Positions 1,291 to 16,741 of a DNA stretch of 64,000 nt are shown here, piece after piece. The first letter of the stretch is position 1, and each line of letters begins with the position of its first letter. The notes beneath the pieces were generated by a model, which was not told the origin of the DNA, did not search any database, and saw only the letters and a program-made list of their open reading frames with translations. The position numbers and the translations under genes are program-made. The stretch comes from Halorubrum trapanicum (GTDB taxonomy: Archaea; Halobacteriota; Halobacteria; Halobacteriales; Haloferacaceae): assembly GCF_002355655.1 (NCBI RefSeq), contig NZ_AP017569.1:2542001-2606000 (forward strand), given 5' to 3'.

Positions 1291-1340
1291 CCCTACCCTA
1301 CTCGCTCACGGCGCTGCCGTTCGCTTCGTTGAGGGTAGGG
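1291..1340 (-). repeat. Right-end hairpin of the IS1341 element, overlapping the tnpB 3' end
   Basis: CCCTACCCT (1291-1299) and AGGGTAGGG (1332-1340) are perfect 9-base inverted repeats enclosing the last codons and stop of tnpB. Related hairpins occur at 2677-2715 and at 55.38-55.43 kb with different stem sequence but similar loop (ACTCGCTC...TCGCT..TTGAG). In haloarchaeal IS1341 elements this region yields sense-overlapping transcripts, and in TnpB systems generally it is the guide (omega) RNA scaffold. Transcription here is inferred. Confidence 0.65.
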
Positions 1341-2572
1341 CTTTCGCGTGGACTCCCGTTCTGGCCATCGCTGGCAGGCTCGTAATCGCCGTTCACGTTC
1401 AACGTCCCGCGATTCAAGCGCACGTTTACGGGTGCGCCTCCACCCGACGACGTTTGCGCCGAGCGGAGATGCTTCAGACCGATATTCTTCGCCGCGTTGT
1501 AGTCGGCGTTCACTTCGTAACCGCACTTCTGGCAGCAGAACCGCGCTTGTGTCTCGCGGTTTTCTCGGAGTGTCGTCCCGCACTTGGAACACCGCTGGGA
1601 GGTGTAGGCGGGACTCACCTGCTCGACGGAGATGCCGACGACTTCGGCTTTGTACTCGACGTACTCGAACACACGTTGGAACGCCCATGCGTGGAACTTC
1701 TTGGCGTTCGGCATCCGCTCACGAATTCCGGTCAGGTTCTCGAACGCGATCACGTCACAGTCGTGTTCGACGGCTTCTGCGACGAGTTCTTTCGAGACGG
1801 TGTGTAAGAACTGGTCATAGCGCCCCGTCTCGGTACGTCCAACCGACTGGATGGTTTCGTGGGCGGCCCGGGTTCCACGTCGTTGGAGCGACCCGCGCCG
1901 CTTCTCGAACTCGCGGTGCCAGTGGTTCAGCTCTGCCCCGTTCCAGAACGTGCCCGTGGAGGTGACGGCGACGTTTTCGATGCCGAGGTCAACGCCGAGG
2001 ACTGTGTTGTGCCCGTCGTTGCCGTCGTCGGCAGTCTCGAACTCCGCGTCCGCCTTTGTGCGGACGTGAAGGTAGAATTCGCCGTCGCGGTAGTGTAGTT
2101 CTGCGCCCGTCACGTCGTAGTCGTCGTTGAACAGATACTCCGAATGAGGCGTCTTGCGATCCTCGTCGGGGAGAACATATCTGGCGGTGATACGTCCCTC
2201 GACGGTCGAAAGCGTCGCGTGGTCGTCGTTGAACGTCGCACATCGCTTGTCGTAGACGAGCGTCGGGGCGGAGAAGCACGGCTTTCCCGCGTAGTCACCC
2301 TGTTTCCAGCGTGCGACAACGCTCTGGACGGCGTCGGCGGCCTTGTTGCGAGCGTTCTGGACGAGATTCGCTTGGAGCCTCGTTTCGGCCCGCACGTCGT
2401 TGTAGGTTTCACGCTGGAGTTGGGCTTTGCTCGTCGTCTTGTACTCACCTTGCCAGGCGTGGTCAACGACGTAGTTGGCGGCCCACAGGAACTCGGAGAT
2501 GGTTTCGTGGAGGAGGGCGGCGTCGCTGTCGGCCACGTCGAGTTTGACGGGGACCGTGCGACGTACCTCCAT
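1298..2572 (-). CDS. tnpB: TnpB, RNA-guided nuclease of an IS1341-type element
   Basis: A 424-residue TnpB from the start [12 protein letters not shown], the usual haloarchaeal N-terminus; an upstream in-frame ATG at 2635 would add 21 unconserved residues. The RuvC-like core looks intact: first Asp in GVDLGIENV (about residue 195), Glu in [11 protein letters not shown] (about 278), a zinc finger CSKCG...CCQKCG (about 325-345) and last Asp in [11 protein letters not shown] (about 357). TnpB proteins are RNA-guided DNA nucleases, ancestral to Cas12, using a guide RNA from the element's right end. The C-terminal tail ([13 protein letters not shown]) is encoded by the right-end hairpin itself. 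All catalytic residues are present, so the nuclease may be active. Confidence 0.9.
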
Positions 2573-2631
2573 CCGTAATTCAGACGTTACGCTAAGTCTT
2601 TGTAATAATACTGTTTTTGGAGGAGAGTTAG

Positions 2632-2648
2632 CCACGTGTAGAACGTGG
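2632..2648. repeat. Small hairpin, possible left end of the IS1341 element
   Basis: CCACGT (2632-2637) pairs with ACGTGG (2643-2648) around a five-base loop, 60 bases upstream of the tnpB start. Its position and size fit a subterminal left-end hairpin of IS200/IS605 elements, but no second left end is available for comparison. Confidence 0.35.
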
Positions 2649-6495: not shown

Positions 6496-8640
6496 TCAGT
6501 CGTCCGCCGATGCCGGCGAGTCGTCGCCCGCGGCCTCGATGTCGACCTCGATCTCGGCCGACGCGGCCTTGTACTCGGGGATCTTCGAGCGCTCGTCGAG
6601 CACGTCGTTGGTGAGGCGGTTCGCGGAGGCGGCCGCGAAGTGCGGCGTGGTCCAGACGACCCCCTCCTTGATGTCCTCGGTGACGTCGGCGCGGACGGTG
6701 ATCTCGCCGCGGCGCGACTTCAACACCACGTCGTCGCCGTCCTCGATACCGTACCGCTCGGCGTCGTTCGGGTGGACGTCGACGAAGTTCTCCGGGTGCT
6801 GCTTCGAGAGCGTGGGCGAGCGGCGGCTCATCGTCCCGGTGTTGTAGTGCTCTTCGAGCCGCGCCGTGGTCAACACGAGCGGGTACTCCTCGTCGGGGAC
6901 CTCCTTCGGCTCCTGGTGGACGACCCCCTCGATGCGGCCGAGGCCGTCCTCGGTCTCGAACTCGTCCTCGTAGAGGAACGGGTCGCCCTCGTCGCCCTCC
7001 TCGTAGCAGGGCCAGTGGAGCCCCGTCTCGCCGAGCGCGTCGTAGGTCATCCCGTGCATGATCGGGCACACCTCGCGCAGCTCCTCGAACACGTCCTCGG
7101 GGCCGTCGAACGCGAACTCGTCGCCCCCGAACAGCCGCGTGCCGACCTCACAGAGGATGTCGAGGTCGTGACGCGTGTTCTCGTGGACCTTGTGGACGCC
7201 GCGCATGCGCTGGACGCGCCGGTCGGTGTTGGTGACGGTGCCGTCGCGCTCGGCCCACGTCGTCGCCGGGAGGACGACGTCCGCGAGCTCGGCGGTCTCG
7301 GTCATGAAGATGTCCTGGACCACCATGAAGTCGAGCTCCTCGCGGAACCGGCGCTCCGTCTCGTTGCCGTCGGGCTCGCTCATGATCGGGTTCTCGCCCA
7401 TGACGTAGAGCCCGTGGACGGTGTCGCCGATCGCGTGGGAGATCTCGACGTTCGTCAGCCCGGGCTCCGAGGGAATCTCGAAGCCCCACACGTCCTCGAC
7501 GGACTCCCTCGCCTCGTCGTCGTCGACGAGCTGGTACCCCGGGAGGACGTTCGGCATCGCGCCCACGTCGCAGGTGCCCTGGACGTTGTTCTGCCCGCGC
7601 AGGGGGTTGACGCCCGTCCCCGGGCGGCCGAGGTTCCCCGTGACGAGCGCGAGGTTGATCTCGTTTTGAACGTTGTCGACGCCGCAGGTGTGCTGGCTCA
7701 TCCCCATCCCGGTGAAGATGGCCGCGTCGTTCGCCATCGCGTACTTCTCGGCGGCGAGTTCGATGTCCGCCAGCGGCACCCCGCACTCCTCGGCGGCCGC
7801 CTCCTTGTCGAAGTCCGCGAGCGTCTCCTTCAGGTGGTCGAACCCCTTCGTGCGCGCTTCGACGAACTCCTCGTCGATCCAGCCCGCGTCCGGCTCTTCC
7901 TCGTGGCGCTCCAGGATCGTCTTGAGGACGATGTTCAGGAGCGGAATGTCGGTGCCCGGCTTCAGCTGGAGGTGTATGTGCCGGTCGGTGTCGTCGATCT
8001 CGAACGACCGGGTGGTCTTGTTCGCGTGCGGGTCGACCTGGATGACGGTCGCGCCCTCCAACACGGCCTGCCGGAAGTACTGGCTGTTAGCGATCGGGTG
8101 CTGCTCGCCCGGGTTCGCGCCTTGGATCCACAGCACGTCCGCGGAGTCCTCTAGGTCGGCCATGCTGTTCGTCATCGCGCCCATCCCGAGGCTGGTCCGC
8201 AGCGCCCAGACGGTCGAGGCGTGACACATCCGCGTGCAGTTGTCGACCTGATTCGTGCCGTACCGCCGCGCCAGCTTCTGGATCAGGTAGTTCTCCTCGT
8301 TGAACGTCTTCGAGGAGCCGAAGAATCCCATCCCGTCGGGGCCGTGCTCCTCGTGGATTCCCTCCATCTCGTCGACGACGCGGTCGAGCGCCTCCGACCA
8401 GGTCGCCTCGCGGAACTCCCCGTCCTCCTTGATCAGCGGCTCCGTCAGCCGGTCCTCGTGGTCGACGACCTGCGTCGCCGCGCCGCCCTTGATGCAGACG
8501 CTCCCCTCGTTCACCGGTGCGTCGCCCCACGGCATGAACCGCATCTCGCCCGGCTCGTCGCCCTCGAGGACGCGGATCCCGCACCCGACGCCGCAGTACG
8601 GGCAGATCGTCTTCGTCGCGTCGTCCGGCTCACTGGACAT
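6496..8640 (-). CDS. fdhF: Formate dehydrogenase alpha subunit, molybdopterin enzyme (FdhF-like)
   Basis: A 714-residue molybdopterin oxidoreductase. Near the N-terminus CPYCGVGC and a later SVCIKGG bind a [4Fe-4S] cluster. The active-site segment reads VDNCTRMCHASTV (about residues 130-143), aligning with the E. coli FdhF selenocysteine site: Cys replaces Sec and the catalytic His follows it. GQNNVQGTCD with its Arg and the C-terminal dinucleotide-binding domain (LTTARLEEHYNTGTMSRRSP) complete the fold. It oxidises formate to CO2; no beta subunit or FdhD is adjacent. The ATG at 8640 is chosen over a GTG nine bases upstream because a GGTGAG ribosome-binding motif precedes it. It diverges from a formaldehyde dehydrogenase-like gene. 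Confidence 0.85.
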   Translation of the reverse strand: MSSEPDDATKTICPYCGVGCGIRVLEGDEPGEMRFMPWGDAPVNEGSVCIKGGAATQVVDHEDRLTEPLIKEDGEFREATWSEALDRVVDEMEGIHEEHGPDGMGFFGSSKTFNEENYLIQKLARRYGTNQVDNCTRMCHASTVWALRTSLGMGAMTNSMADLEDSADVLWIQGANPGEQHPIANSQYFRQAVLEGATVIQVDPHANKTTRSFEIDDTDRHIHLQLKPGTDIPLLNIVLKTILERHEEEPDAGWIDEEFVEARTKGFDHLKETLADFDKEAAAEECGVPLADIELAAEKYAMANDAAIFTGMGMSQHTCGVDNVQNEINLALVTGNLGRPGTGVNPLRGQNNVQGTCDVGAMPNVLPGYQLVDDDEARESVEDVWGFEIPSEPGLTNVEISHAIGDTVHGLYVMGENPIMSEPDGNETERRFREELDFMVVQDIFMTETAELADVVLPATTWAERDGTVTNTDRRVQRMRGVHKVHENTRHDLDILCEVGTRLFGGDEFAFDGPEDVFEELREVCPIMHGMTYDALGETGLHWPCYEEGDEGDPFLYEDEFETEDGLGRIEGVVHQEPKEVPDEEYPLVLTTARLEEHYNTGTMSRRSPTLSKQHPENFVDVHPNDAERYGIEDGDDVVLKSRRGEITVRADVTEDIKEGVVWTTPHFAAASANRLTNDVLDERSKIPEYKAASAEIEVDIEAAGDDSPASADD

Positions 8641-8906: not shown

Positions 8907-10076
8907 ATGAGAGCTGTTGTCTATCAAGGCCCATACGACGTGGCCGTCGAAGACGTAGACGAACCGGAGATAGAACACCCGAACGACGTCGTCGTCGATA
9001 TCACTACGTCCTGTATCTGTGGGTCGGACCTCCACATGTACGAGGGTCGAACCGCGGCCGAGGAAGGGATCATCTTCGGCCACGAGAACATGGGCGTCGT
9101 CAGCGAGGTCGGCGAAGCGGTATCGACGCTGGAGGAGGGCGACCGCGTCGTGATGCCGTTCAACGTCTCCTGCGGCTTCTGTCAGAACTGCGAGGAGGGG
9201 TACACCGGCTTCTGTACCAACGTCAACCCCGGCTTCGCGGGCGGCGCGTACGGTTACGTCGCCATGGGCCCGTATCCGGGCGGACAGGCGGAAAAACTGC
9301 GCGTCCCGTACGCCGACCACAACGCGCTGAAGCTGCCGGAGGGCCGCGAACACGAGGACGCGTTCTCGCTGCTCGCGGACATCTTCCCGACGGGGTGGCA
9401 CGGCACCGAGCTGGCGAACCTCGAGTCGGGCGAGTCCGTCGCCATCTTCGGCGCGGGACCGGTCGGGCTGATGGCCGCCTACAGCGCGAAGATCAAGGGC
9501 GCGGCCGAGATCTACGTCGTCGATCAGGTGCCGAGCCGACTTGAGCTCGCGGAGGAGCACTGCGACGCCCACGCCATCGACTTCTCCGAGGGCGACCCGG
9601 TCGACCAGATCATCGAGGAGCACGGCGGGATGGTCGACAAGGGCGTCGACGCGGTCGGCTACCAGGCGACCGACCCGGACGACGTCGACACCGAGACGGA
9701 GGACTACTCCTACCAGCCGGCCAAGGAGAATCCGGCGGTCGTGATCAACAACCTCATCCGGGTCGTCCGGCCGACCGGCGAGCTGGGAATTCCCGGGCTC
9801 TACGTCCCTGAGGACCCCGGCGCGCCCGACGACATGGCCGCGCAGGGGCGACTCGGCATCGACTTCGGGAAGTTCTTCGAGAAGGGGCTCAAGTGCGGCA
9901 CCGGGCAGTGTAACGTGAAGGAGTACAACCGGTACCTCCGCGACATGATCATCGAGGGCCGGGCGGACCCGAGCTGGGTCGTCTCGCACCGGGTCGACCT
10001 GGAGGAGGCGCCCGAGATGTACGAGGCGTTCGACGCCCGCGAGGAGGGCGTCACGAAGGTCCTGCTGGAGCCCTGA
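8907..10076 (+). CDS. fdhA: Glutathione-independent formaldehyde dehydrogenase-like zinc alcohol dehydrogenase
   Basis: A 389-residue medium-chain dehydrogenase. Catalytic zinc ligands appear in CICGSDLHMYEG and GHENMGV; the structural zinc loop is CGFCQNCEEGYTGFC; the NAD site is GAGPVGLMAAYSAKIKG. Length and inserts (YSYQPAKENPAVVINN, FEKGLKCGTGQCNVKEYN) match the Pseudomonas putida formaldehyde dehydrogenase/dismutase subgroup rather than ordinary alcohol dehydrogenases. These enzymes oxidise formaldehyde to formate without free glutathione. The divergent neighbour is a formate dehydrogenase, so together they could take formaldehyde to CO2. Substrate is inferred from subgroup and context; other short aldehydes or alcohols are possible. 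Confidence 0.75.
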   Translation: MRAVVYQGPYDVAVEDVDEPEIEHPNDVVVDITTSCICGSDLHMYEGRTAAEEGIIFGHENMGVVSEVGEAVSTLEEGDRVVMPFNVSCGFCQNCEEGYTGFCTNVNPGFAGGAYGYVAMGPYPGGQAEKLRVPYADHNALKLPEGREHEDAFSLLADIFPTGWHGTELANLESGESVAIFGAGPVGLMAAYSAKIKGAAEIYVVDQVPSRLELAEEHCDAHAIDFSEGDPVDQIIEEHGGMVDKGVDAVGYQATDPDDVDTETEDYSYQPAKENPAVVINNLIRVVRPTGELGIPGLYVPEDPGAPDDMAAQGRLGIDFGKFFEKGLKCGTGQCNVKEYNRYLRDMIIEGRADPSWVVSHRVDLEEAPEMYEAFDAREEGVTKVLLEP

Positions 10077-10636: not shown

Positions 10637-11842
10637 TCACAGCGGGAACGCGTCCGCAGCCGCCTCCTCGGCGGCCGCGGTCTCCCCGTCGGCGTCGGCC
10701 GTCGTCAGGCCGTCGAGCTCGCCGCGGATCCGCGCCTCGTCCATCTCGCTGCCGATGAACACGAGCCGCGTCCGCCTGTCGTCGTCGGGCTCCCACTCGC
10801 CGATGGGACCCGCCTGTACCGAGGGGCCGGCCTGGCTCACGCCGATCACCTCGTCGGTGCCCGCGACGTTCGCGACGCCCTTCGCCCGAACGATCGCGCC
10901 GTCCCAGTCGTCGAGCCAGTCCGCGAACGGCTCCGGGTCGAGCGCGTCGGCCGAGCGGTAGACGAACGAGTCGACCCCGTGGGCCGCGGCGGCCCCCTCG
11001 GCGTGGTCGTGGTCGTGCGCGTGGCCGCCTCCTCCTTCTCTGCCCTCGCCCGCCGCATCGCCCTCGTCCGCCGCGTCGCCCTCGCTCGCCGCGTCGCCCT
11101 CGTCCGCCGCGTCGCCCTCGCTCGCGGCGATCTCGCGTTTCCACCCCGGTGACCGCTTGGCCGTCTCGAAGTCGAACCGCCCGGTGTCGAGCACGTCGCC
11201 GGGGTCGACCTCGGAGTAGCTCGTCCGGATCCGCTTCGCACGCGGCCCCAGCCGGTCGGCGACCGACTCGATCTCGTCGAGCACGTCGTCGGGGACCATG
11301 TCAGTCTTGTTCAACACGAGCACGTCGCAGAACTCGATCCCCTCGACGAGCACGTCCGCGAGGGGGCGGTCGGCCGCCGGCTCGCCGTCGCCCGGGAGGC
11401 TCTCGCCCGCGTCGAACTCCTTCCAGAACCCGTAGGTGTCGAGGACGGTCACCATCGTGTCCAGCCGGAAGCGCTCGGTCGGGTCGACCTCGCTGTCCTC
11501 GGTCCCCTCTGTGAACGCCCGCGCGACCGGGATCGGCTCGGAGATGCCCGACGACTCCACGAGCAGGTAGTCGAACTCGCGCGACTCCGCGAGCGCCGCG
11601 GCCTCCGAGAGCAGGTCGTCCTGGAGCCGGCAGCAGATACAGCCGTTCGAGAGGTCGACGACGCCCTCCTCGTCGTTCTCGCGGGCGACGAGCTCGGCGT
11701 CGACGTTCACCTCTCCCATGTCGTTTAAGATGACCGCGATCCGCCTGTCGCCGGGGTTTGCGAGCAGGTGGTTCACCATGGTCGTCTTCCCGGCGCCGAG
11801 GTAGCCGCTGAGGACGGTGACCGGGATCCGGTCGTCTGTCAT
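10637..11842 (-). CDS. CobW/G3E-family GTPase, probable zinc metallochaperone
   Basis: A 401-residue G3E GTPase. Walker A is GYLGAGKTTMVNH (about residues 10-22), the metal site is SNGCICCRLQ (CxCC, about 73-76), Walker B region YLLVESSG, and guanine specificity NKTD (about 185). Residues about 245-285 are a low-complexity insert made of repeated EGDAADEGDAAS units followed by a His-rich HAHDHDHAE stretch, then a CobW C-terminal domain. Family members load zinc, cobalt or other metals into client enzymes at the cost of GTP. The His-rich loop argues for metal delivery. Two tiny putative zinc proteins lie beside it. Metal and client are unknown. Confidence 0.8.
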   Translation of the reverse strand: MTDDRIPVTVLSGYLGAGKTTMVNHLLANPGDRRIAVILNDMGEVNVDAELVARENDEEGVVDLSNGCICCRLQDDLLSEAAALAESREFDYLLVESSGISEPIPVARAFTEGTEDSEVDPTERFRLDTMVTVLDTYGFWKEFDAGESLPGDGEPAADRPLADVLVEGIEFCDVLVLNKTDMVPDDVLDEIESVADRLGPRAKRIRTSYSEVDPGDVLDTGRFDFETAKRSPGWKREIAASEGDAADEGDAASEGDAADEGDAAGEGREGGGGHAHDHDHAEGAAAAHGVDSFVYRSADALDPEPFADWLDDWDGAIVRAKGVANVAGTDEVIGVSQAGPSVQAGPIGEWEPDDDRRTRLVFIGSEMDEARIRGELDGLTTADADGETAAAEEAAADAFPL

Positions 11843-11932
11843 GTGTGCTACCAGTGTCCACGCCTGTATCAAACGATCGATCGGGACGATCGAGACGAAC
11901 GTTCATCCGTCCCACCGCCGTACCGCGAGGCG

Positions 11933-12558: not shown

Positions 12559-13290
12559 CTACTCGACGACCTCGACGACCGGGTCGTCCGCGATCAGGCG
12601 CGTGAGGAGGACGCGCGGCACGTTCGCGCGGAAGAGGATCTCACCGGCGATCGCTCGGGCCGCGTCCGCGTCCGCCTCGTCGTCGACCTTGTTCACGACC
12701 GGGATCGCGGTCGCGTCGCCCGGGACGCCCTTCAGCCCGCCCGCGGGGCTCGCGAGGACCGTCGCGACGTCGGCGGGGCGGATCTCGTCGCCGATCTCGC
12801 GGCCCGTGATCGCGGCGACCTCCTCCGGCCGGTGGACGAGCTCCTCGGTGAGCGGCTCTCCGACGACGTGCGCGCTCGCGATCGGGACGACCACGTCCGC
12901 GTTCGACGGGATCTGCGGCTCGTGGTCGCCGGGCGCCTTGAACTCCCGGAGCCGCGCCCCGTCCGCCTTCACGAGCGTCGCGCCGGGCGCGGCGTCGGCG
13001 ATCTCGGCGACGGCCTCGGTGTCGTACCCGAGGTACCGGTCCGAGCGCTCGCGTTCGGGGACCAGCCCGAGCGGCCAGTCGCCGTCTCCCGCCTCGTCGA
13101 GCGCGCCCACCGGGTCCTCGGTCACGCGGACCGCGGCGACCCGGTCGTCGAATATCGGTATCCGCACGCTCGCGGTCACGACCGACCGATCGAGCCGGTC
13201 GGCGAGCGCGAACAGCGTCGACTTCTTGCCGCCCGCGCCGACGACGCAGACGGTCGCGTCGCGGGCGTCGAGCGCGGTCGTGAAGTCCAT
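12559..13290 (-). CDS. yqeC: YqeC-like putative selenium/molybdenum hydroxylase accessory protein
   Basis: A 243-residue protein with a P-loop-like VCVVGAGGKKSTLFALAD (residues about 14-31), then VVTASVRIPIF, LVKADGARLREFKAP and PVVNKVDDEADAD, the ordered motifs of the YqeC family. In bacteria YqeC clusters with selenium-dependent molybdenum hydroxylases and is thought to help build their cofactor; the biochemistry is unsettled. Here no xanthine dehydrogenase-type hydroxylase is near; the neighbour across the divergent promoter is an AOR-family protein and fdhF lies 4 kb away, so a role in molybdenum or tungsten enzyme maturation is plausible but inferred. Confidence 0.7.
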   Translation of the reverse strand: MDFTTALDARDATVCVVGAGGKKSTLFALADRLDRSVVTASVRIPIFDDRVAAVRVTEDPVGALDEAGDGDWPLGLVPERERSDRYLGYDTEAVAEIADAAPGATLVKADGARLREFKAPGDHEPQIPSNADVVVPIASAHVVGEPLTEELVHRPEEVAAITGREIGDEIRPADVATVLASPAGGLKGVPGDATAIPVVNKVDDEADADAARAIAGEILFRANVPRVLLTRLIADDPVVEVVE

Positions 13291-13432: not shown

Positions 13433-15340
13433 ATGAGTCGGCGCCGCACCCACGTCCTCCGCGTCGACCTCTCGACGGGTGAGACCGCCCGTGAACGCGT
13501 CCCCCGCGACTGGCGACGCGACTACGTGGGCGGGAAGGGACTGGGGGCGCGCTACCTCTACGAGGAGCTGTCCCCGGGGACCGACCCGACGGCCCCGGCG
13601 AACCGCCTCGGATTCTTCGTCGGGCCGCTCGCGGGCTACCTCCCCGGCGAGACGCGCTACGCCGCGGTGACCAAGTCCCCGCTCACCGGCGGCTTCCTCG
13701 ACTCGTACGCCGGCGGCGAGTTCGCCGATCGGCTCGCGGGGTCGCTCGACGACTGCCTCGGGCTGCTCGTGACGGGCGCCGCCGACCGGCCGGTCCGGAT
13801 CGAGGTTGAGAGCGGCCGCGCCCGGATCGAGGCGAGCGACGCGTGGGGCGCCGACGCGGCCGAGACGGACGAGCGATTCCCGGACGCCGGCGTCGCCTGC
13901 GTCGGTCCCGCGGGCGAGCGCGAGGCGGCCTACGCGACGGTCGCGAGCGACGGCGGCGATCACCACGCGGGCCGCGGCGGCGCCGGCGCCGTGATGGGTT
14001 CGAAGCGGCTGAAGGCGGTCGTCGGCCGCGACCCGCCGCCGACGGTCCCCGACGACCTCGCTAAGCTCCGCGACCGCGACGCGGCGGCATACGGCGACGA
14101 TCCGACCGGCGAGTGGCAGGCGGCCGGCGAGACGGTCGAGACGGTCGACTACGCCAACGAGGTCGGGATCCTCGCCGCGGAGGGGTGGACGGGGACCGGC
14201 TTCGACGGCGCCGACGACATCGGCGTCGAGGCCGCGCTGGAGCGCGCGACGGGGCGCGAGGCAGTTGCCGACGCCGGCCAAGGCGAGGGCCCCGCCGTCC
14301 CCGGCGGCTTCCGGATCGACACGCCCGACGGCGAGGTGGTCCCGCGCGGCGCGGCGCCGATCACGCTCGGGGCGGGCCTCGGCATCGACGACTTCGACCG
14401 CGTCGTCGACCTGTGCGGGGTCTGCGACCGGCTCGGCCTCGACGTGATCGGCGCGGGCAACGCGGTCGCGTGGGCGATCCGTGCGGGGGAGGCGGGAGTC
14501 GTCGACTGTCCGGTCTCGTTCGGCGACGCGGCGGGCGCCGAGCGCCTCTTGGAATCGATCGCGGCCCGCGAGGCGCCGCCGGACCTCGACGTCCACCCGG
14601 ACCTGCCGGACGCGCTCGCCGACGGCATCGACGCCGCGGTCGCCCGGTTCGGCGGCGCGGACCTCGTGCCGACGGTGAAGTCGATGGCGCTGCCCGGCTT
14701 CGACCCCCGCGCGGCGGTCGGCGTCGCGCTCGCGTACGCGACGAGCGACCGCGGCGCGTGCCACCGCCGCGCGCGGCCGCAGGACACCGAGCCCCTGGCC
14801 CGCCCGGACCGGTCCCCGACAGACCGGGTCCGCGACGTGGTCGGCGAGCAGAACGCGCGCTCGGTGCTGTGGAGCCTCGTCGTCGACGACTTCGTCGGCG
14901 AGGCGGTCTGGACCGACCTCGGCGCCGAGTGGCTCGCGGCGGTCGACCACCCCGCGGTCGCCGATGTCGACCGCGGCGGGGACGCCGAGTGCGAGGCCGA
15001 CGCCGACACGCGGAGCGACCCGGTCGCCGCGCTCGCGACGACCGGCGAGCGGATCTGGACGCTCACCCGGCTGTTCAACGCCCGCGAGGGGTTCGACCGC
15101 GACGACGACGCGCTCCCCGAGCCGCTCCGCACGGCCGCGGCCGACGGGACGCCCGGCGTCGACGTCGACGCGTTCGACCGCCTGCTGGACCGCTACTACG
15201 CGGCGCGCGGCTGGGGGGACCGCGGCCTCCCGACGCCGGCGGGGCTCGACCGCCTGGGACTCGCCGGCGTCGTCGACGACGCGACGCCGCTCGACGACCG
15301 CCCGATCGACCTCGCCGCGGCGGCCGAGTCGGACGACTGA
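13433..15340 (+). CDS. aor: Aldehyde:ferredoxin oxidoreductase (AOR) family protein lacking Fe-S cysteines
   Basis: A 635-residue AOR-family protein. The N-terminal pterin-binding domain is clear: VLRVDLSTGETARE, YVGGKGLGARYLYEEL, KSPLTGGFLDSYAGGEF and the central GRGGAGAVMGSKRLKAV. In characterised AORs a CxxCxxxC motif plus one distal Cys holds a [4Fe-4S] cluster beside the tungstopterin. Here the corresponding stretch (REAVADAGQGEGPAVPGGF) has no cysteine, and the distal region (SLVVDDFVGEAVWTD) has none either. The only closely spaced pair is DLCGVCDRLGLD (about 326-330), in the conserved CDxLGLD segment. The protein may bind cofactor without a cluster or use another electron path. It diverges from yqeC. 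Confidence 0.8.
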   Translation: MSRRRTHVLRVDLSTGETARERVPRDWRRDYVGGKGLGARYLYEELSPGTDPTAPANRLGFFVGPLAGYLPGETRYAAVTKSPLTGGFLDSYAGGEFADRLAGSLDDCLGLLVTGAADRPVRIEVESGRARIEASDAWGADAAETDERFPDAGVACVGPAGEREAAYATVASDGGDHHAGRGGAGAVMGSKRLKAVVGRDPPPTVPDDLAKLRDRDAAAYGDDPTGEWQAAGETVETVDYANEVGILAAEGWTGTGFDGADDIGVEAALERATGREAVADAGQGEGPAVPGGFRIDTPDGEVVPRGAAPITLGAGLGIDDFDRVVDLCGVCDRLGLDVIGAGNAVAWAIRAGEAGVVDCPVSFGDAAGAERLLESIAAREAPPDLDVHPDLPDALADGIDAAVARFGGADLVPTVKSMALPGFDPRAAVGVALAYATSDRGACHRRARPQDTEPLARPDRSPTDRVRDVVGEQNARSVLWSLVVDDFVGEAVWTDLGAEWLAAVDHPAVADVDRGGDAECEADADTRSDPVAALATTGERIWTLTRLFNAREGFDRDDDALPEPLRTAAADGTPGVDVDAFDRLLDRYYAARGWGDRGLPTPAGLDRLGLAGVVDDATPLDDRPIDLAAAAESDD

Positions 15341-15374: not shown

Positions 15375-15701
15375 TCAGCGACGCAGCCCGCCCTCGGCCT
15401 TGATCCGCATGATGTGCCGGACGTTGAGGTAGATCTCCTCGGGCGACGTCTCCTCCTCGTCGTCGTACAGGTCCGAGACGCGGTAGAGAATCGCCGAGAG
15501 CTGCCTGCTCTCCGAGCTGTCCCCCCGAACGTCCTCGGCCACGTCCCGGAGGAACTCCCGTACCTCGTCGTCCGCGGGAAACTCCGCCTCCGACGCGTCC
15601 TCCGGGACGACCGGGTCGACGCCCGCGGCCGCGAGCGGGTCCTCGTGGTCGGCGTCGGCGCCCCCCTCGGAGGCGGAGGCGTCGTCGTCCGCGTCGGTCA
15701 T
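15375..15701 (-). CDS. Haloarchaeal hypothetical protein downstream of mrp
   Basis: A 108-residue protein with a very acidic, probably disordered first third (DADDDASASEGGADADHED) and a helical C-terminal half (REFLRDVAEDV, SRQLSAILYRVSDLYDDEEE, EIYLNVRHIMRIKAEGGLRR). The start overlaps the end of mrp by four bases, so the two are very likely co-translated and the product may assist Fe-S cluster carriage or assembly. No named family is recognised. Confidence 0.65.
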   Translation of the reverse strand: MTDADDDASASEGGADADHEDPLAAAGVDPVVPEDASEAEFPADDEVREFLRDVAEDVRGDSSESRQLSAILYRVSDLYDDEEETSPEEIYLNVRHIMRIKAEGGLRR

Positions 15702-16741
15702 CGCCCCTCGCTCACCCCGCGGCGGCGGACGACGCCGGCGTTGTTCGCGACGTTCTCGACGAGCACCTTGAACGCGTCCGCGGTCTCGCCGTCTTCCAAG
15801 ACGACCGGCTCGCCGTCGTCGCCGCCGGTGCGCACCTCGGGGTCGAGCGGGATCCCGCCGAGGAACGGGAGATCGTGCTCCTGCGCGAGCGCCTTCCCGC
15901 CGCCGGAGCCGAATATCTCGTGGAAGCCGCCGCAGTCGGGACAGCGGAAGCCGGCCATGTTCTCCGCGATGCCGAGGACGTTCGTGTCGTGTTTGCCGAA
16001 CATGCGGAGCCCCTTCACCGCGTCGTCGAGGGCCACGTCCTGCGGCGTCGTGACGATCACGGCCCCCGTCAAGGGGAGCGTCTGGAGGATGGTGAGCTGG
16101 GTGTCGCCGGTGCCCGGCGGCAGATCCATCACGAGGTAGTCGAGCTCACCCCACTCGACGTCCTCGACGAGCTGGGTGATGATCTTGTGGACCATCGGGC
16201 CGCGCCAGATGACGGGGTCGTCCTCGCCGGTGAGGAAGTCCATGCTCATCAGCTTCACCCCGAACCGCTCGGGGGGAACGATCGTCTCGCCGTCGGTCTC
16301 GGGGCGCTCCTCGGCCGAGACCATCCGCGGCACGTTCGGCCCGTACACGTCGGCGTCGAACAGGCCCACGCGGGCGCCGAGCTGGGAGAGCCCGGCGGCG
16401 AGGTTCACCGCGACGGTCGACTTCCCAACGCCGCCCTTCCCGGAGGCGACCGCGATCACATTCTGGACGCCGGGGAGAACCTGCTCGTCCGCCGAGAGGT
16501 CGTCCGGAATCGACGCCGACAGCTCGACGTCGAGGCCCGTATCCGCGAGCGCCTCGCGCACGTCGTCCGCGACGGCCGACTCGTTCGGCGAGAAGGGGGC
16601 GCCGAGCGCGAGCGACACACGGACCGTCCCCGCTCCCTCGTCGACCTCGACGTCGTTCACCAGCCCGAGCGAGACGATGTCGCCGCCGAGGTCGGGGTCC
16701 CGCACGTCGGCGAGCCGCTCTCGAACGTCCGCTTCGTTCAT
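15698..16741 (-). CDS. mrp: Mrp/NBP35/ApbC family Fe-S cluster carrier ATPase
   Basis: A 347-residue protein with an N-terminal MIP18/DUF59 domain (VRDPDLGGDIVSLGLVNDV, residues about 12-30) fused to a deviant Walker A ATPase: VASGKGGVGKSTVAVNLA (about 100-117), FDADVYGPNVPRM, MDLPPGTGDTQL, and the C-terminal CPDCG that binds a bridging [4Fe-4S] cluster between two subunits. These ATPases assemble or transfer Fe-S clusters in the cytoplasm. The gene is the first of a two-gene unit. The conserved cysteine pair is intact, so this is a canonical carrier. Confidence 0.9.
   Translation of the reverse strand: MNEADVRERLADVRDPDLGGDIVSLGLVNDVEVDEGAGTVRVSLALGAPFSPNESAVADDVREALADTGLDVELSASIPDDLSADEQVLPGVQNVIAVASGKGGVGKSTVAVNLAAGLSQLGARVGLFDADVYGPNVPRMVSAEERPETDGETIVPPERFGVKLMSMDFLTGEDDPVIWRGPMVHKIITQLVEDVEWGELDYLVMDLPPGTGDTQLTILQTLPLTGAVIVTTPQDVALDDAVKGLRMFGKHDTNVLGIAENMAGFRCPDCGGFHEIFGSGGGKALAQEHDLPFLGGIPLDPEVRTGGDDGEPVVLEDGETADAFKVLVENVANNAGVVRRRGVSEGR

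Follow-up and report, generated by a model that had tools for sequence, protein, structure and literature searches.

The window analysed here is a 64,000-nt stretch of the Halorubrum trapanicum genome (NZ_AP017569.1, assembly GCF_002355655.1, positions 2,542,001 to 2,606,000 of the forward strand). It encodes an AOR/WOR-family protein without cysteine ligands for a [4Fe-4S] cluster, referred to below as the cluster-free WOR. The gene has YqeC as its divergent neighbour and shares the region with genes for the alpha subunit of a cytoplasmic-type formate dehydrogenase (FDH), a zinc alcohol dehydrogenase, a CobW-family GTPase, and an Mrp/ApbC-like Fe-S carrier ATPase (Table 1). The alcohol dehydrogenase is formaldehyde-dehydrogenase-like and adjoins FDH, which suggests a formaldehyde-formate-CO2 route.

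The 635-residue protein is composed of AFOR_N (PF02730, 195 bits) and AFOR_C (PF01314, 223 bits) domains, both well above cut-off. These are its sole Pfam matches, and it does not belong to the FdhD family PF02634. The AlphaFold model of the protein (pLDDT 92.5) has the full AOR fold, with TM-scores (query length) of 0.83-0.86 to structures 1aor, 9mqx, and 1b25. The protein thus has both domains and the fold of an AOR/WOR large subunit. Two further WORs of the same genome carry the cluster cysteines and are located elsewhere. Ten plasmid records with 54-58% identity to the protein are labelled 'aldehyde ferredoxin oxidoreductase C-terminal domain-containing'; the label is shared by relatives near 30% identity, and labels of this kind are no evidence of aldehyde oxidation.

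Table 1 Features of the cluster-free WOR locus, numbered from the first nucleotide of the window
Feature	Position	Strand	Basis or remark
FDH alpha subunit, cytoplasmic type	6496..8640	-	TIGR01591 722 bits, cut-off 666
Zinc alcohol dehydrogenase, nearest glutathione-independent formaldehyde dehydrogenase	8907..10076	+	TIGR02819 333 bits, below cut-off 637; near gene in 7/52 loci
CobW-family GTPase	10637..11872	-	PF02492/PF07683; 6/52 loci
YqeC (TIGR03172), divergent neighbour	12559..13290	-	168.6 bits, cut-off 73.05
Cluster-free AOR/WOR-family protein	13433..15340	+	ATG at 13433, stop end 15340, 635 aa
AGRGGAGAVMGSK, residues 179-191, conserved family motif, kept	13967..14005	+	alignment
Site of lost CxxCxxxC, residues 274-294	14252..14314	+	variable loop running into PGGF; model strands 293-297, 300-302
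Arg305-Gly306-Ala307 replacing PfAOR Glu311-Tyr312-Glu313	14345..14353	+	alignment
DRLGLD, residues 332-337, presumed first pterin-binding motif, kept	14426..14443	+	D337 invariant in 63 rows
His444 (= PfAOR His448), kept	14762..14764	+	39/39 clade, 24/24 cysteine-bearing
WSLVVDD, residues 480-486	14870..14890	+	fourth Cys to Asp485, D489 to Trp480, 39/39 each
Mrp/ApbC-like Fe-S carrier ATPase	15698..16741	-	profile matches; 5/52 loci

Residues lost and retained in the cluster-free clade

For the residue comparison, 63 sequences were aligned, of which 39 belong to the clade of the window protein and 24 are cysteine-bearing WORs. The three cysteine columns of the CxxCxxxC motif and the column of the distal fourth ligand hold Cys in all 24 cysteine-bearing sequences and in none of the 39 clade sequences, which bears out the original prediction that the window protein lacks both. 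The fourth ligand, C494 of PfAOR, is replaced by Asp throughout the clade. At the other end of this second DxxGLC motif, D489 has become Trp in 39/39 clade sequences and is Asp in 22 of the 24 cysteine-bearing ones, so that the motif is altered at both ends. The Glu311-Tyr312-Glu313 columns read Glu, Tyr, and Glu in 24/24 cysteine-bearing sequences; in the clade they contain Arg (39/39), Gly (39/39), and Ala (34/39, with Gly in four and Ser in one). Two more replacements are fixed in the clade: Tyr occupies the Asn93 column, and a mostly conserved Arg of the cysteine-bearing sequences corresponds to His177 (39/39 each). The window protein therefore has neither the four cysteines for one [4Fe-4S] cluster nor Glu313 and its neighbours Glu311 and Tyr312. 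Class I WORs are defined in PMC13328260 as a single WorL that contains a [4Fe-4S] cluster and has no adjacent subunits, and the cluster ligands of this class are likewise absent. Because the cluster ligands and Glu313 are missing, the protein should not, as judged from its sequence, be classified as a functional WOR.

The same positions were read in 52 haloarchaeal loci, 51 of them fetched and one from the window. None of the 52 has Cys at the CxxCxxxC place. Asp occupies the fourth-ligand place in 50/52, a count to be read with the bias that one of the two fetch patterns included the DDF motif; the remaining two loci, L077 and L079, are unreadable there because the retrieved frame breaks. Within the 133 genomes that carry the gene (see below), the residue-by-residue inspection covers those with fetched loci. 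Displacement of the cluster ligands to other cysteines, the case that would have overturned the original prediction, is not supported by the 63-sequence alignment: the columns that hold Cys throughout the clade (C156, C331, and C443 of the window protein) also hold Cys in 24/24 cysteine-bearing WORs, and no column has a Cys fixed in the clade only, C108 being Cys in 16/39. A lone Cys lies four residues ahead of the fourth-position Asp in eight of the 52 loci (L048, L053, L055, L058, L061, L064, L067, and L075) and is missing from the window protein. It is not supported as a displaced ligand, as it has no partner Cys.

Much of the cofactor site is retained. Residues R181, G183, G185, V187, G189, and K191 of the AGRGGAGAVMGSK motif are invariant across all 63 sequences, cysteine-bearing WORs included, and the motif presumably has a role in the pterin-phosphate/Mg region. 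We take Arg76, the DxxGLD/C motifs, and Asp489 to be pterin contacts. Arg75 is kept in 38/39 clade sequences, and Arg181 and Asp337 are kept as well. The second-shell residues Thr243, Tyr427, and His448 are represented by T234 (39/39), by position 423, which is Tyr in 36/39 and Phe in three sequences including that of the window, and by H444 (39/39). The roles of the AOR/WOR residues follow PMC12096430 and PMC13328260, in the first of which Ala183 of PfAOR is described as a backbone Mg ligand and Glu313 as the proposed proton acceptor of AOR. Since the clade keeps most of the pterin/phosphate motifs, it is predicted to bind W- or Mo-bis-MPT with a bridging Mg. The original prediction that the pterin-binding domain is well kept thus applies to most of these motifs and fails for Glu311-Tyr312-Glu313, the loss of which it had missed, and for the second DxxGLC motif.

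In an unrooted tree of 49 sequences, built with the trait columns excluded, the 24 cluster-free sequences form one haloarchaeal clade (support 100/100), the outcome of an alignment check proposed with the original prediction. Four cysteine-bearing haloarchaeal WORs join the clade as its sister (100/99), and a single loss event is the simplest reading of this topology. The sister WORs (L114-L119 and L121) show 36-41% identity, share with the clade the DRG.CHQR motif, and in five of seven have an aromatic residue at the D489 place, as the clade does. They differ from it in having CxxCxxxC and Glu313 in 7/7 and the fourth Cys in all five in which the motif is readable. Tungsten AOR/WOR large subunits of known structure (PfAOR 1aor, FOR 1b25, and the electron-bifurcating WOR 9mqx) have in common with the clade both domains, the full-length fold, most pterin/phosphate motifs, Thr243, His448, and mostly Tyr427, whereas the clade is without CxxCxxxC, the fourth Cys, and Glu311/Tyr312/Glu313, and has Trp in place of D489.

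The original prediction also allowed for a decaying copy kept in frame. Eight residues conserved in cysteine-bearing WORs are indeed lost, and the frames of three retrieved loci (L070, L077, and L079) are broken. However, the replacement residues are conserved in 39/39 sequences, the single clade extends across many genera, and the fold is predicted with high confidence. Ten genes of the genus of the window give dN/dS ratios of 0.20-0.26 against the window gene, with a median of 0.24 over 45 pairs, by which measure the clade is under purifying selection. Decay is therefore hardly credible.

Association of the cluster-free WOR with formate dehydrogenase

Occurrence of the gene was profiled over 242 haloarchaeal genomes, the identical set each time, from lists compiled by hand. 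The cluster-free WOR, counted as present at a sequence identity of at least 50% with split and partial matches included, is found in 133/242 genomes. Cytoplasmic FDH (at least 65% identity to that of the window) is present in 109 genomes, 92 of them with the cluster-free WOR, and Tat-FDH (E <= 1e-170) in 66 genomes, every one of which has it (66/66). One or other of these two types accompanies the gene in 119/133 genomes. A third type, added after the first two had missed 14 of the 133, occurs in 62 genomes (61 near full-length, one partial), 51 of which have the cluster-free WOR. Any of the three types is present in 160 genomes, which contain 133/133 of those with the gene (p 2.6e-41); this and the p-value below are optimistic because the FDH types were picked from the neighbourhoods of the gene itself and type 3 was added later, and the genomes are related and non-independent. 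A shorter FDH-like group, T3b, has no positive link to the gene (1/133 genomes with it versus 16/109 without). The gene and FDH occur together in 43 genera, FDH only in six, and the gene only in none. In 12 of the 19 genera that vary for the gene, every genome without it is also without the three FDH types. The cluster-free WOR is not needed for every FDH, because 27 of the 160 FDH genomes do without it (the cytoplasmic type alone in 16, type 3 alone in 10, and both in one).

Canonical cysteine-bearing WORs are present in 187 genomes, among them 159/160 FDH genomes and 132/133 cluster-free WOR genomes. As the canonical WOR also tracks FDH (phi 0.74, compared to 0.79 for the cluster-free WOR), a large share of the raw association is explained simply by whether a genome uses Mo/W cofactors. 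An apparent set of 17 genomes with the cluster-free protein as the sole family member was a threshold effect. Within the 187 canonical-WOR genomes, 132 have both the gene and FDH, none has the gene only, 27 have FDH only, and 28 have neither (p 2.4e-18). The near-constant company of the canonical WOR could mean that the cluster-free protein is its partner, for example in a heterodimer, rather than a partner of FDH. We regard this as very improbable, since the cluster-free gene occurs in one genome (G130) that has no canonical WOR at E <= 1e-150 and is missing from 55 canonical-WOR genomes, 28 of them being also without FDH, and in the window genome the other WOR copies lie elsewhere while the neighbours are FDH and Moco genes.

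Neighbourhoods were counted in the 52 loci by a uniform tblastn procedure within about 10 kb. FDH lies near the gene in 39/52 loci, with the best match given by the cytoplasmic query in 19 and by the Tat query in 20; the third FDH type, some 1,100 residues long, is among the matches that reach ~40% identity with the cytoplasmic query. Full flanks are available for 43 loci; FDH is present in 35 of them, and at least one of FDH, YqeC, MobA, and TorD in 40. YqeC is near in 23 of the 52 loci, a TorD-like gene in 21, a NuoF-like gene in nine, and MobA in 19, the last at a median gap of 145 bp. An HdrA-like FeS protein is near in 19/52 loci, all of Tat-FDH type. FDH was found beside none of the seven sister cysteine-bearing WORs and in none of 29 non-haloarchaeal loci, in controls of which several loci were short-flanked. 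L120, a cysteine-bearing WOR from haloarchaea that is more distantly related, is near Tat-FDH-like and TorD-like genes, which weakens a strict specificity of the FDH link. Taken together, the tie of the cluster-free WOR to FDH, which the original prediction had missed along with those to YqeC and MobA, is well supported. A pattern search did not find the usual His448 motif in L120. A DUF7124 (PF23439) protein is encoded downstream of the cluster-free WOR in 23/52 loci, at a median gap of 168 bp (e.g. L050:11869-12654).

Co-location with FDH would equally fit an enzyme of formate/formaldehyde metabolism. Such a metal-bis-MPT enzyme without an internal cluster might perform a non-redox or anion-binding step, in which the new Arg305 together with His444 could bind formate, or it might perform a redox reaction and pass electrons straight to a partner protein, for which the multi-FeS and DUF7124 proteins encoded nearby are examples. 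The invariance of Arg305, the retention of the Thr243 and His448 equivalents in 39/39 sequences and of Tyr427 in 36/39, and the proximity of the DUF7124 protein, the HdrA-like protein, and the formaldehyde-dehydrogenase-like alcohol dehydrogenase (23, 19, and 7 of 52 loci) all fit this proposal. Nevertheless, the proposed AOR proton acceptor Glu313 (PMC12096430) is gone, and no redox partner is shared by all FDH types: the HdrA-like protein was found in Tat-type loci only. An enzymatic role is thus unlikely, if still a serious alternative. A structural or regulatory FDH-binding partner, that is, a pseudoenzyme subunit or sensor with or without pterin, would account for the tie to FDH and for the lost catalytic residues. 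It is less probable again, because the protein goes with three different FDH types, which is not readily expected of a dedicated subunit, and most of its cofactor motifs are strictly kept. The original prediction had offered a protein with a different electron acceptor and a pterin protein of hydratase-like or structural kind, each of which is possible; the structural option is close to the cofactor-holder reading that we prefer.

YqeC and a putative role in FDH cofactor maturation

FDH without fdhD is common in halobacteria, and a 2023 review poses as a question which proteins insert and sulfurate the cofactor in them (PMC10609526). FdhD was detected in 0/242 haloarchaeal genomes by a model that finds it in 8/14 control genomes. 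Elsewhere FdhD binds bis-MGD, sulfurates it, and delivers it (PMC10609526), and the maturation order given for one tungsten FDH is MoeA1/MobB, MobA, FdhD (PMC13197769).

YqeC is present in 170/242 genomes (169 over cut-off), including 160/160 FDH genomes and 133/133 cluster-free WOR genomes, and 72/242 genomes have neither YqeC nor FDH. Ten genomes have YqeC without the three FDH types; four of these are among the 20 SelD genomes, and a further FDH-like gene, at 52% identity, is present in two. Of the 17 cytoplasmic-FDH genomes without the cluster-free WOR, 12 have YqeC at most 5 kb from FDH and three have it elsewhere; it is absent from the matches listed for the other two. YqeC has been proposed as an accessory of selenium hydroxylases (PMC2276186), and its deletion in C. 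difficile is described as giving no clear phenotype (PMC11448449). The window neighbour resembles the YqeC of selenium-dependent molybdenum hydroxylases in exceeding the TIGR03172 cut-off. However, haloarchaeal YqeC follows the distribution of FDH, and most of the genomes concerned have no SelD above cut-off: SelD reaches it in only 20/242 genomes and in 15/133 of those with the cluster-free WOR. The distribution of YqeC in this class suggests a general partner of FDH and not a marker of selenium use.

YqeC contains an invariant GAGGK, and its structure was modelled with a pLDDT of 96.1. The YqeC profile gave no match to sequences of solved structures up to E = 1, and Foldseek gave none at E <= 0.001, so the reading of the fold comes from a second structure comparison. 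The model aligned with the SRP GTPase 1okk (Z 12.8, 3.1 Å, 173 residues), MeaB 8dpb (Z 10.4, 3.3 Å, 160 residues), and MinD 1g3q (Z 10.3, 3.7 Å, 178 residues). Based on these alignments, YqeC is predicted to be a P-loop NTPase of the same kind as the SRP GTPase, MinD, and MeaB. G proteins that deliver cofactors belong to this class too.

We hypothesize that the cluster-free WOR serves FDH maturation, a role that we rate at a little short of an even chance. The protein would no longer carry out ferredoxin-linked aldehyde oxidation and would instead bind a metal-bis(molybdopterin) intermediate, which it may hold or present during the maturation of FDH. It would act most likely upstream of MobA, the enzyme that attaches the guanine nucleotides, since the AOR-family pocket of E. 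coli YdhV, by analogy, takes nucleotide-free bis-MPT and not bis-MGD. YdhV is an AOR-family holder of bis-MPT that was purified without a functional cluster and supplied bis-MPT for MobA in vitro; bis-Mo-MPT derived from YdhV was converted with MobA and GTP to bis-MGD, which activates apo-TorA, and apo-YdhV is reported not to take up bis-MGD (PMC9103625). A difference from the clade is that descriptions of YdhV include a [4Fe-4S] site and a Cys that ligates the metal (PMC9103625; PMC12096430). YqeC could be the general partner, responsible for energised transfer and/or terminal sulfuration, and the two proteins together might cover the work that FdhD does elsewhere. We speculate, more tentatively still, that a tungsten enzyme without its former cluster and catalytic acid has, alongside YqeC and MobA, taken the place of FdhD in haloarchaea and keeps metal-bis-MPT ready to be converted and delivered to FDH. 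The proposed service in FDH cofactor maturation is the likeness of the clade to FdhD/FdsC, which belong to an unrelated sequence family; FdhD, moreover, binds bis-MGD and transfers sulfur (PMC10609526). The maturation reading is weakened by the change of D489 to Trp in the second pterin motif, by the 27 FDH genomes that do without the gene, and, as regards YqeC, by the ten genomes that have it with none of the three FDH types and by the C. difficile deletion result.

The cluster-free WOR and YqeC are thus two named candidates for the maturation of FDH in halobacteria without FdhD. The clade is also an example of a metalloenzyme family that shed its electron-transfer site and catalytic acid and is still tied to another metalloenzyme. 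The literature, covered at the level of titles and abstract openings, with supplements and most subscription journals outside the scope, mentions neither a cluster-free WOR clade nor a WOR-derived FDH maturation factor; the 92-clade WOR tree of PMC13328260 may hold the clade under a number. Matches of FDH and the cluster-free WOR that had been flagged as containing an internal TGA (one TAG) were checked in eight loci, and selenocysteine was rejected: in two FDH loci the stop falls at the extreme C-terminus, and the other six have no internal stop in the local alignment. The window additionally encodes a TnpB-family RNA-guided endonuclease (1298-2635, minus strand; 181 bits, cut-off 100).
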